Assembly: GCF_900141815.1 (NCBI RefSeq) | Contig: NZ_FQYR01000003.1 | Location: forward strand, 806,001 to 870,000 | DNA length: 64,000 nucleotides | Source: Rubritalea squalenifaciens DSM 18772 | GTDB taxonomy: Bacteria; Verrucomicrobiota; Verrucomicrobiia; Verrucomicrobiales; Akkermansiaceae | Reading direction: 5' to 3' | Part shown: positions 22,917 to 26,280 of the stretch, one piece after another | How the letters are laid out: each line of letters opens with the position of its first letter | Position numbering within the stretch: position 1 is the first letter of the stretch | The notes under the pieces: model-generated | Seen by the model: the letters and a program-made list of their open reading frames with translations, nothing else | Database searches by the model: none | What the model was told of the DNA's origin: nothing | Made by a program: the position numbers and the translations under genes

Positions 22917-23930
22917 ATGGCATTCGATTCTTCACAAACTGTAGCTGTCCTAGGAGCTGGTTCTTGGGGGTCCGCGTTGGCAATCCTGGTGTCGGAGCAT
23001 TTCCAAAAAGTCATACTCGTTGGCCGTGATCCTGAGCAAATTGCGGAAATAAACGCATTCCACACCAACAGAAACTATCTACCCAAGATCAAGCTTCCTA
23101 CGAACATCGAAGCTACCACCGACTATAACGAAGTAGCTGAGGCAGCCTTGATTCTCTCTGTACTCCCTACCTCTGCCACTCGTGAGGGCGCTGAAGCTCT
23201 CAAAAAAGTGGGTATCAAGGCGAACGTCCCAGTTGTTTCTTGTGCCAAAGGCATTGAGAGAAACACAGGCCGCAGAATGAGTGAGATCATCGCAGAGCTA
23301 CTTCCTGAGAACCCAATCGCCGTACTTTCTGGCCCCAACCACGCGGAGGAAGTTTCAGCCAAAATGGCTACCTGCGCGGTAGTGGGATGCTCTGATGAAG
23401 AGCTGGCAGCAGACCTCCAGTCTGTCTTTACGGCCAACTATTTCCGTACTTATACCAGTGATGACATCGCCGGCATAGAGTTGGGTGGCGCACTCAAGAA
23501 CGTCTTTGCCATCGCCGCAGGTATTGTGGCAGGCATCGGTCTGGGTGATAACGCGATTGCAGCACTCGTCACCCGAGGATTGACCGAGATGACTCGCCTT
23601 GGAGTAGCCCTAGGAGGTCGCCAAGAAACCTTCTCTGGCCTCTCTGGCATTGGCGACCTGATGGCTACTTGCTACTCACCGCATTCTCGTAACAACCGCG
23701 TAGGTAAGGCTCTAGGTAGTGGTGAGACCCTTCAGGAGGCCACTGATCGCCTTGGCATGGTCGCCGAAGGCGTACCTAACACCCTATCCATCTACGAAGC
23801 TGCTAGAAAAGCGGGAATCGAGACACCTCTCATCGATGCTGTCTACCAGGTGCTCTACGAGGATAAACCTGCTCAGGAAGCCCTGGTTGAACTCCTGACA
23901 AGGGAGCCCAAGCCAGAGCACGTCGATTAA
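22917..23930 (+). CDS. gpsA: NAD(P)H-dependent glycerol-3-phosphate dehydrogenase
   Basis: GpsA reduces dihydroxyacetone phosphate to sn-glycerol 3-phosphate for lipid synthesis. I choose the ATG at 22917 (337 aa). The frame reaches back into plsY to 22836, but the Rossmann motif VAVLGAGSWGSALA starts at residue 9 from this ATG, as expected. Further motifs are AKGIERNTGRRMSE, LSGPNHAEEVS, and the catalytic Lys region GGALKNVFAIAAGIVAGIG. Late text SRNNRVGKALGSGE is family-typical. A CAAGG stretch just upstream could serve as ribosome site. Its stop overlaps the stop of the convergent selenoprotein candidate by 4 bp. Confidence 0.95.
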   Translation: MAFDSSQTVAVLGAGSWGSALAILVSEHFQKVILVGRDPEQIAEINAFHTNRNYLPKIKLPTNIEATTDYNEVAEAALILSVLPTSATREGAEALKKVGIKANVPVVSCAKGIERNTGRRMSEIIAELLPENPIAVLSGPNHAEEVSAKMATCAVVGCSDEELAADLQSVFTANYFRTYTSDDIAGIELGGALKNVFAIAAGIVAGIGLGDNAIAALVTRGLTEMTRLGVALGGRQETFSGLSGIGDLMATCYSPHSRNNRVGKALGSGETLQEATDRLGMVAEGVPNTLSIYEAARKAGIETPLIDAVYQVLYEDKPAQEALVELLTREPKPEHVD

Positions 23931-25174
23931 TTGCTGCTTTTCATGGCCTTGGGATATTCATCCCACTTGTGCGGCTGCAACTGCTTTTCATGAGCGTTGT
24001 TTGCCAAGCGGATATAGCTGGCAACTGAGGTCGTCTTTGTAGTGCCCCTATGGAGATTGGATTTCAGCTCATGCAGCGAGCGACTGCCCAGAGAAACCCA
24101 CTCCAGCGATTGAAAGCTCTCATTTTGCTTATTCCAGACGGCTTTACCTATCAGCTTTCCACTGTAGCCTGATTGGTTCCACTGACTATTTGCCTCCATC
24201 TGAATAGCACCCTCGTAGGTCAAGTAGACCAGATCACCCTCAAGTTTGATCACTTGAACCTGAATGTCTGCCTTCTTGATGTGCTCTTTCCACCACGCTG
24301 GACATCCAAACATCAAATGCCCATGCAGTAACAGCCTCTCTGAAACTGTCACACTGAGCGCAGCCCGGGAGCCAAGCGTCAAGGTGGAGGGCAATAGCCC
24401 TTTAGCTTCATCGGCCGAAAACCACAACGAGTCCCGCTTACTATATTGAGGATGCCTTGCATCAAACAACTCCATTTCCTTAAAAGGATAATGACGAGCG
24501 TAAGTAACCAACTTGACTCCCTTCACATTACGGTTTGCCTCTCTCGCCTTATAGCTGCGATCACGCTCACTTAAGGGCGTATCCTTCAGGCGATTTTCTC
24601 TCTTCAGGCCATCGTACTTCACCTTGGCCATTTTCAAATTCTCCAGGCTCTTCACCGGGTCGTAGGTCGGCCACCCTGTGTCAATCTTAGCCAGAAACCT
24701 GCCGGATGGCGTAACAGCATAGACTCCTTGATGAATGCGAGCTCCTCCATCTGCTAGCGACTGATGCAAGAAGCGATACTCCCCTTTTGCCTTAGCGGCA
24801 TCTGACAAGTGGTTATAAGCGACATCGTCGGAGGCTACCCCCACGAAATGATTTGCGATGTATTGAATGAACTCCGGATTATTGAAAAGCAACTGCCTTG
24901 TCTTAAATCCGTTCTGTCAGCAATTACCGAGAGGCCCACCAAAATACAGCCATAGCAAGATCGGCTTATCCTCCTTCTGCCCCTTCATTTGACCATCCAG
25001 CACGCTATTTTCCCACGGCACACTCAGATAGAGTTGATCGTGCTGGTCACCGACAACATAGGCTTCCACGGACTCCATCTCACTCAGTGTCAGGTCACTA
25101 GGTGGAATAGATTGCGCTGACACACTCCTAAGCGCCGTGATCAGGGAGATTAGCAAGAAAAAGAATCCTTTCAT
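23927..25174 (-). CDS. Candidate selenoprotein: exported thioredoxin-fold protein with in-frame TGA (Cys-Sec)
   Basis: Seen directly: from ATG 25174 one frame runs 415 codons to the stop at 23927, broken only by TGA at 24919-24917, codon 86. It directly follows Cys85 (GGPLGNC-TGA-QNGF). The upstream part has a signal peptide (about 1-20) and a hydrophobic strand (PILLWLYFGG) like the one before a thioredoxin active site. After the TGA, LLFNNPEFIQYIANHFVGV matches the helix and strand after the CxxC of Thioredoxin_7-like domains, with codon 86 at the place of the first Cys. The downstream part has no signal peptide and no ATG for about 95 codons, so it is unlikely to be a separate gene. A SECIS-like hairpin follows the TGA. 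Residues 130-415 form a domain I do not recognise. Inferred: TGA is read as selenocysteine. The alternative is a nonsense mutation or sequencing error; selABCD genes are not in this window. Confidence 0.68.
24875..24911 (-). promoter_or_regulatory. Bacterial SECIS-like hairpin downstream of in-frame TGA
   Basis: On the transcript, CGGAUU (24911-24906) pairs with AAUCCG (24880-24875). Inside, AAG-A-CAA pairs with UUG-CUU around the 5-nt loop GGCAG (24897-24893), leaving a bulged A in the upper stem. The loop begins 19 nt after the UGA. Known bacterial SECIS elements such as that of E. coli fdhF have a short upper stem with a bulge, a loop starting with GG, and a similar distance (about 18 nt). 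The lower stem and the asymmetric internal loop are less certain. Folding software was not run. Confidence 0.6.
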
Positions 25175-25278
25175 GATTAACTAAAATTAAGGAAAAGACC
25201 CACCAAAGTTACAAAAGTCGTCACAGAATAGGTCGAAATAGTTGACCCAGCCTTGGCTTGCGTCTATCACCACCTGTG

Positions 25279-26280
25279 ATGAGCCAGCACGCTTCAGAAA
25301 TTCCAGTCACAATCGCCGGAACAGGCAGCTATGTCCCTGAAAAAATCCTGACCAATGCGGATCTCGAGAAAATCGTGGACACCACGGATGAATGGATCAC
25401 CTCACGCACTGGCATCAAGGAGAGACATATCGCCGCTGAAGGCGAGAACACCTCAGACTTAGCAACCAAGGCCGCAGAGCGCGCTCTCGAGCAAGCCCAG
25501 ATGAAAGGCGAAGACTTGGACCTCATCATCGTAGCGACTATCTCACCAGACACCATTACCCCGGCTACCGCTTGCTATGTGCAGCACAACTTAGGTGCCA
25601 CCAAAGCGGTCGCTTTCGATATTTCTGCCGCCTGCTCAGGTTTCCTTTATGCCATGAAGCTGGCAAAGCGCATGATTTCTGACGGAGCCTTTTCTAATGC
25701 CCTCATCATTGGCGCCGAAAAGCTCTCTGCATTTGTAAACTGGGAAGACCGCAATACTTGCGTACTCTTCGGCGATGGCGCGGGTGCAGCCGTTCTCAGA
25801 AAATCCGAAGATGGTGAAGGCCGCATCCTGGCTACCGAAATGGGAACCGATGGCGCCCAAACTGGCATCCTGAATATTCCAGGTGGTGGATCAGCCTGCC
25901 CGATCACCGTAGATAATGCCTCGGAAAAACTGGCATCTCTCAACATGCAAGGCCGCGAGGTCTTCAAACTGGCAGTCAATGCCATGAAACGTGCTTCCGA
26001 AACAGCCATTGAGCGAGCAGGTCTCACTCCTGATGACATCAAACTCGTGATCCCACACCAGGCGAACCTGAGAATCATCGATGCCATTGCCGACCGTCTC
26101 ACCGTACCAAATGAGAAAGTCTTCGTGAACCTGCATAAATATGGCAACACCTCAGCAGCCGCAGTAGCGATCGCCTTGGATGAAGCCCATCGCGAAGGTA
26201 AATTTGAACGAGGAGACAATATCGTTCTGGTCGTGTTTGGAGCCGGACTCACTTGGGCAGCTACTGCCATTCAGTGGTAG
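25279..26280 (+). CDS. fabH: Beta-ketoacyl-ACP synthase III
   Basis: FabH condenses acetyl-CoA (or a branched acyl-CoA) with malonyl-ACP to start fatty acid synthesis. I start it at the ATG at 25279 (333 aa); a TTG seven codons upstream is possible. The catalytic triad is visible: Cys in DISAACSGFLYAM (about 112), His in IPHQANLRI (about 250) and Asn in HKYGNTSAA (about 280). TTDEWITSRTGIKERHI near residue 35 is typical of the family. Branched-chain versus straight-chain preference cannot be told. It is divergent from the selenoprotein candidate, with 104 bp between the starts. A terminator follows. Confidence 0.95.
   Translation: MSQHASEIPVTIAGTGSYVPEKILTNADLEKIVDTTDEWITSRTGIKERHIAAEGENTSDLATKAAERALEQAQMKGEDLDLIIVATISPDTITPATACYVQHNLGATKAVAFDISAACSGFLYAMKLAKRMISDGAFSNALIIGAEKLSAFVNWEDRNTCVLFGDGAGAAVLRKSEDGEGRILATEMGTDGAQTGILNIPGGGSACPITVDNASEKLASLNMQGREVFKLAVNAMKRASETAIERAGLTPDDIKLVIPHQANLRIIDAIADRLTVPNEKVFVNLHKYGNTSAAAVAIALDEAHREGKFERGDNIVLVVFGAGLTWAATAIQW

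Follow-up and report, generated by a model that had tools for sequence, protein, structure and literature searches.

A putative exported thioredoxin-fold selenoprotein with a Cys-Sec pair in Rubritalea squalenifaciens and its relatives in other bacterial phyla

The gene and its reading frame

The window analysed here is a stretch of 64,000 nucleotides of Rubritalea squalenifaciens DSM 18772 (contig NZ_FQYR01000003.1, positions 806,001 to 870,000), taken from a genome of 4.32 Mb in 17 contigs. Its minus strand holds a frame that reads MKGFFFLLISLITALRSVSAQS..KPILLWLYFGGPLGNC-UGA-QNGFKTRQLLFNNPEF.. over 415 codons and then ends in TAA (Table 1). The sole internal stop is the UGA at codon 86, right behind Cys85, and inspection of the frame bears out an earlier note, made from the sequence alone, that had described a single 415-codon frame with one TGA directly after this cysteine. 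The GC3 of the frame is 0.58 before the TGA vs. 0.57 after it. Read by ordinary rules, the same DNA gives two ORFs, one of 85 aa that starts with ATG and one of 321 aa that starts with TTG at 24892. The N-terminus looks on inspection like a signal peptide, as had been proposed, and the protein is probably exported. The earlier note had further held that the part behind the TGA lacks both a start and a signal; the lack of a signal sequence was confirmed, but the TTG does open an ORF, which would leave out the active site. The convergent gpsA-like gene on the plus strand and the selenoprotein frame have overlapping stop codons, the TTAA at 23927-23930 serving both.

Table 1. Features at the locus, in window coordinates
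Feature	Position	Strand	Remarks
Candidate selenoprotein gene, whole	23927..25174	minus	ATG at 25174, Sec UGA at codon 86, TAA 23927-23929; 415 residues
Probable signal peptide, residues 1-20	25115..25174	minus	..SVSA-QS; sequence inspection
Thioredoxin-fold domain, residues 46-191	24602..25039	minus	AlphaFold2 model and structure comparison
Cys85, likely resolving thiol beside Sec	24920..24922	minus	Cys at -1 in 14/14 distinct CU-subfamily sequences of alignment A3
UGA codon 86, putatively read as selenocysteine	24917..24919	minus	Conserved in homologues; followed by model helix 87-95
SECIS-like hairpin	24884..24902	minus	Apical stem 24886-24899, loop AGUU; 17 nt past UGA
C-terminal beta-barrel-like domain (predicted), residues 218-391	24002..24523	minus	Modelled separately, mean pLDDT 88.4
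gpsA-like gene (glycerol-3-phosphate dehydrogenase)		plus	Convergent with the selenoprotein gene; named by reading the sequence

Relatives of the protein and the residue at the UGA

Among named organisms, Rubritalea profundi SAORIC-165 has the best match to the protein (53% identity); the R. profundi homologue, L083, likewise carries UGA. Among 142 genomes, comprising the own genome and its relatives, 36 have a family match at E<=0.001; all 49 matches listed, the own one included, contain UGA (one also TAA), and in all 30 loci fetched from them the UGA lies at the aligned codon. A codon-neutral scan of a named genome collection, based on peptide patterns in which the selenocysteine (Sec) site was left free, matched 82 stretches, 11 of which encode a relative, and all 11 carry UGA. 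Six of these (L083, L084, L085, L087, L088 and L090) duplicate genes of the first set (L013, L015, L016, L017, L020 and L018, respectively), and the five new ones belong to an Akkermansiaceae MAG, two Fimbriimonadaceae (Armatimonadota), Planctomycetes bacterium Pla163 and a member of one further phylum. A comparison of homologues at codon 86 had been suggested as a check, and the relatives have UGA there rather than an unrelated residue.

Larger samples extended this distribution. At E<=1e-6, matches to the family profile occur in 110 of 392 Planctomycetota and 46 of 251 Armatimonadota genomes, some of these matches being weak, partial or without UGA. Among the full-length matches listed (those covering 300 or more profile positions and beginning no later than position 60), UGA is contained in 103 of 111 and 57 of 59, respectively, its position at the Sec column being verified for the fetched loci. 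All 40 of these, L102-L141 (L131 repeating L091), have the codon at that column. In the phylum of L093, 5 of 195 genomes match, all with UGA, and in L157 and L158 its position at the motif was confirmed. Among 387 evenly drawn Verrucomicrobiota genomes, 39 match at E<=0.001, and UGA occurs only in the own genome and in G033, so in this phylum the family is patchy outside the order of the window's organism; the other matches in this sample are weak, at E 1.3e-7 or worse, and those inspected proved to be CxxC proteins aligned over the thioredoxin domain.

Two subfamilies can be told apart by motif. That of the window protein (CU type) has [LY/F]FGxxxxNC-U-QNG, and the larger sister subfamily has mostly MDGHPLGC[TV]-U-NNG. 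An 11-row alignment has 50% mean column identity with invariant columns on either side of the UGA, and a wider one (A1) holds 28 of the 30 loci, with L024 and L041 omitted as short or cut. Genome G1043 of the Armatimonadota sample has six family matches on six contigs, which suggests an expansion of paralogues. Besides the protein itself, no neighbouring gene recurs at more than 3 of 24 loci and none points to a substrate, a comparison in which mainly 13 loci are informative since the other 11 are only 2.7-4 kb long.

Retention of the UGA by homologues in other phyla argues that its presence at codon 86 is beyond chance, and judging from these sequences the family spans at least three bacterial phyla. 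A nonsense mutation or sequencing error that splits an ordinary thioredoxin-like gene into two dead or separate ORFs would account for the 85- and 321-residue frames but has a very low probability and was rejected: relatives in three or more phyla have UGA at this codon, the sequence is conserved on both sides of it, and the downstream half would be left with neither signal sequence nor active site. Against sequencing error in particular, 160 full-length matches outside the phylum contain UGA.

The relatives without UGA are few. Ten full-length ones comprise seven with Ser at the Sec position (L142, L144-L148 and L150) and one each with Asp, Pro and Cys; the Asp relative has a TAG elsewhere in the frame, the Pro relative is poorly aligned, and the sequence around the Cys of L149, CDDC, is divergent. 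Asp is also found in two shorter relatives, L154 and L155. The genomes of the Ser relatives G605 and G682 and of the Pro relative G804 have no selA match, while selA is matched in those of the Ser relatives G618, G678, G817 and G883, with G1132 outside the count. A tree was built from 84 rows (74 Sec, 7 Ser, 1 Asp, 1 Pro, 1 Cys). On it the Sec label must change five times, each change being required by a well supported branch, and rows with Ser are found at two places among those with Sec; the fragments L151, L152, L154 and L155 were dropped from it, L054 and L157-L161 are not included, and L131 equals L091. From this unrooted tree we infer loss of Sec, and the Ser forms possibly lack redox function. 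The weak non-UGA matches to CxxC Thioredoxin_7-type proteins cover the thioredoxin domain alone, and we judge them to be a distant outgroup rather than Cys orthologues.

Homologues containing Cys are the usual discovery criterion and companion of selenoproteins, not a defining feature. Here a single Cys was found among the ten full-length non-UGA matches, against 160 UGA forms among the full-length matches of the Planctomycetota and Armatimonadota samples. This near-absence of Cys orthologues is unusual, and contrasts with the published statement that Cys orthologues seem to exist for every known selenoprotein (PMC12013277).

Hairpin and selenocysteine machinery

The earlier note had pointed to a hairpin with a GG-starting loop behind the TGA; relatives have a covarying stem there, but the GG sits in the stem and not in the loop. 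In CU-type sequences the conserved apical stem has six pairs (nt 20-25 / 31-36, numbered from the first base of UGA) around a loop AGU(U/C), and in the window copy and that of R. profundi it is offset by one base (nt 21-25 / 30-34), with a loop AGUU that is one base shorter. Because the window copy folded alone is only moderately better than its shuffles (z -1.49, 15 of 200 as good), the evidence for the hairpin is the covariation in relatives. Over 14 CU-type sequences, 90.5% of the cells of the stem form pairs and 16 cells have changed on both sides; no shuffle out of 500 matches the observed figure for either of these counts or for the covariation score, while on two other measures, the pairs with both-side change and the pair types, 138 and 52 of the 500 do. 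When slid along the alignment the stem is at most 42.9% paired, and RNAalifold recovers the same stem unaided. In 17 sequences of the sister subfamily (alignment A4, 17 of 21 sister-type sequences, with the near-copies L025, L026, L027 and L037 omitted) a stem at nt 15-21 / 27-33 is paired in 89.9%, and none of 500 shuffles, nor any slid version, is as high on the same three measures, with 94 and 258 of 500 shuffles reaching the observed value on both-side-change pairs and pair types.

Sequences collected later fit these stems to differing degrees. All 48 cells pair in eight CU-type sequences, and slides give at most 19 of 48; six of the eight are new, all of them from the Armatimonadota sample and close to L089 and L091 of the set that defined the stem, whereas L131 and L158 repeat L091 and L093 of alignment A3, and L159-L161 have no motif match. 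Among 35 later sister-type sequences the stem pairs in 173 of 245 cells, and slides reach at most 106, so that another hairpin must serve some of the members. Neither stem fits well in one group (L114-L121, L132-L134 and L138, e.g. ..FGCTUNNGVIAR..), whose hairpin must have another position. A search of 24600-25300 against Rfam gave no match.

The own genome has the genes for Sec synthesis and insertion, which the earlier note had proposed to look for. Profile searches found SelA (506.8 bits), SelB (300.1 bits) and SelD (378.3 bits), all over cut-off, and a tRNA-Sec at 50.8 bits, just above the gathering score of 47, to which ARAGORN assigns the anticodon tca. The SelD of this genome (L050, G000:C3:915205-916134) has one in-frame UGA near its N-terminus (..SCGGUASK..) and looks like a selenoprotein itself.

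Across genomes the family goes together with selA. In the set of 142, selA occurs in 35 of 36 genomes with the family vs. 27 of 106 without it (Fisher p 3.6e-15), and in the Planctomycetota in 101 of 110 vs. 175 of 282 (p 6.9e-10), both p-values being too small because the genomes are related to each other; the threshold used for selA (E<=0.001) lets in weak matches, 239 of the 276 Planctomycetota genomes being over cut-off. All 11 genomes of the codon-neutral scan have selA over cut-off, six of their genes repeating the earlier set. The sole genome among the 36 with a family match and no selA match is G090, which is 83% complete. Nine Planctomycetota family genomes are without a selA match: the three Ser or Pro cases above, three that have a UGA match spanning the Sec column (G672, G722 and G772), G590, whose match begins past that column, and G517 and G649, whose matches are weak.

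A full-length product would likewise arise if the UGA were read as something other than Sec, either as Trp by near-cognate decoding or by programmed read-through. We consider this very improbable, and Trp decoding was rejected, as none of the ten full-length and two shorter non-UGA homologues has Trp at the Sec column, the family is associated with selA, and a covarying hairpin lies just downstream of the UGA. The reading that we regard as very likely from these sequence comparisons is that of one exported protein, with UGA 86 decoded as Sec by the organism's own SelA, SelB, SelD and tRNA-Sec under direction of the hairpin.

Fold and known families compared

An AlphaFold2 model of the window protein, built with 28 sequences, has a mean pLDDT of 89.4. 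The best VIA-align match of the thioredoxin domain is 3f9u_B (Z 13.5, rmsd 3.2 over 123 residues), followed at lower scores by AGR3 (3ph9, Z 11.6), the DsbD C-terminal domain (2fwe, Z 8.6) and DsbH, and its best Foldseek match has E 1.1e-3. In thioredoxins the nucleophilic Cys stands just before the active-site helix. In the model a helix begins right after Sec86, which we take, from knowledge of the fold, to be at the nucleophile position. The model thus supports a thioredoxin fold with the active site at a strand-helix turn, and backs the proposal of the earlier note that the TGA occupies the position of the catalytic Cys. For the C-terminal domain no clear solved relative was found, the best VIA match having Z 7.2 and none by Foldseek reaching E<=0.001. 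Its VIA matches are mostly outer-membrane barrels, but at Z 7.2 or less they are at the level expected without a true relative, and the domain was not assigned as an outer-membrane protein; the only sequence match to solved structures, a radial spoke protein at E 0.45, was taken as spurious.

Residues W54, G79, U86, N88, G89, R93, Q149, G150, G158, W294, G343 and G363 are invariant in 28 members, G89 being Val in the later loci L112 and L113. Gly89 (motif UxNG, the usual Gly at +3) occupies the place of the second Cys of CxxC. Nearly all members have Cys one residue before Sec (CU) or two before it (GC[TV]U and kin); neither is present in L034 and L156, which both have a Cys at -4, or in L054.

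Comparison with described families gave likenesses to several and identity with none of those compared. In Pfam the window protein has no naming match, its sub-threshold match to DUF4822 (E 0.063) being under cut-off and unsupported as an identity, and in NCBIfam it has none up to E 10; the best NCBIfam match of the 28 members has E 0.0049. The VPGUxxT families (NF041382 and NF041383) are likewise thioredoxin-like (seleno)proteins and are weakly matched by 5 and 7 of the 28 members (best E 0.0049 and 0.025), but the window protein has neither a match to them nor a VPGUxxT motif and carries a C-terminal barrel-like domain, and the present family has NCUxNG or GC[TV]UNNG, in which Sec closely follows a Cys and position +3 is usually Gly. 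Going by its name, the Trx7/PDZ (seleno)protein family (NF041199) contains a Thioredoxin_7-type domain; its site includes Sec and is CxxU according to Table 1 of PMC13188914; it matches 1 of 28 members at E 0.043 and not the window protein, the spacing here is CU or CxU rather than CxxU, and PDZ is absent from the Pfam matches of the 28 members.

Structure comparison places Thioredoxin_7 (PF13899), the DsbD C-terminal domain and AGR in the same fold. Thioredoxin_7-type proteins have a CxxC active site, as also seen in the outgroup. Unlike these proteins, the present family has Sec for the nucleophilic Cys, usually Gly at +3 for the second Cys, extra residues before the site and the barrel-like domain behind it. 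PF13899 matches 14 of 28 members at E<=1 (best 3e-4) and not the window protein itself. A further likeness is to the SCTU site of iodothyronine deiodinases, as the GCTU of the sister subfamily has the same Cys-Thr-Sec spacing in a thioredoxin fold; for deiodinase 3, the Cys two residues before Sec has been proposed to resolve it (PMC7506546). The deiodinase family PF00837 is not among the Pfam matches of the 28 members at E<=1, and no deiodinase is among the 50 VIA matches listed, which carries no weight against one.

No entry of the 119 families in Table 1 of PMC13188914, a 2026 review, was matched by model or motif, and PMC4807772 reports selenoproteins in Planctomycetes, among which members of the present family may be included. 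As far as the family models and literature compared reach, the sequences appear to form a new family of thioredoxin-fold selenoproteins, unusual in the neighbouring Cys-Sec pair at the nucleophile position and in the near-absence of Cys orthologues. The same genome encodes a second thioredoxin-like protein with a Cys-Sec pair (L094:5980-7269, minus strand; G000 contig C2, about 125979-127268), which has 429 residues, one UGA at codon 127, the motif EYCUANG, sequence past the UGA that folds into a hairpin, and no NCBIfam match better than E 0.16.

In the reading regarded above as very likely, the hairpin just past the codon directs Sec insertion at UGA 86, and the product is predicted to consist of a Thioredoxin_7-like domain followed by the beta-barrel-like domain. 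Outside the cytoplasm, the selenolate would attack an oxidised substrate such as a peroxide or a disulfide, the Cys at -1 (at -2 in the GC[TV]U sister subfamily) would resolve the intermediate as a selenenylsulfide, and an exported thiol reductant would then reduce the latter. This cycle, to which we give about an even chance, is drawn from the Cys before Sec and from the parallel to the SCTU site of deiodinase 3 (PMC7506546). We infer redox function, export and the resolving role of Cys85; the barrel-like domain may, at a guess, bind a substrate or partner.

Alternatively, the protein may be a Sec-peroxidase of the GPx/Prx kind in which the neighbouring Cys is unused and partner thiols resolve the selenium, which seems rather unlikely. 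Such an enzyme would fit the invariance of Sec, Asn88, Trp54 and Gln149 in 28 aligned members, which the Cys at -1 or -2 does not share, the motif UxNG without a second Cys, and the members L034, L054 and L156; but nearly all members retain a Cys at one of these two positions, among them all 14 CU sequences of alignment A3, and neither a GPx nor an AhpC-TSA family is among the Pfam and NCBIfam matches of the 28 members. Beside resolution by the neighbouring Cys, the reading that we prefer, we tentatively consider that the family in Verrucomicrobiota, Planctomycetota and Armatimonadota may be exported and obligately selenium-dependent, with a chemistry beyond the reach of Cys; this might be peroxide reduction or dehalogenation of the deiodinase or GPx kind, not disulfide exchange.

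Despite profile matches in 110 Planctomycetota and 46 Armatimonadota genomes of the samples, some of them weak or partial, the 28 members compared have no NCBIfam match better than E 0.0049. Ordinary gene calling would split the frame at the UGA, which could explain why the family was missed. With natural homologues that have Sec, Ser or, rarely, Cys at the same position, what Sec does beyond Cys becomes directly testable.
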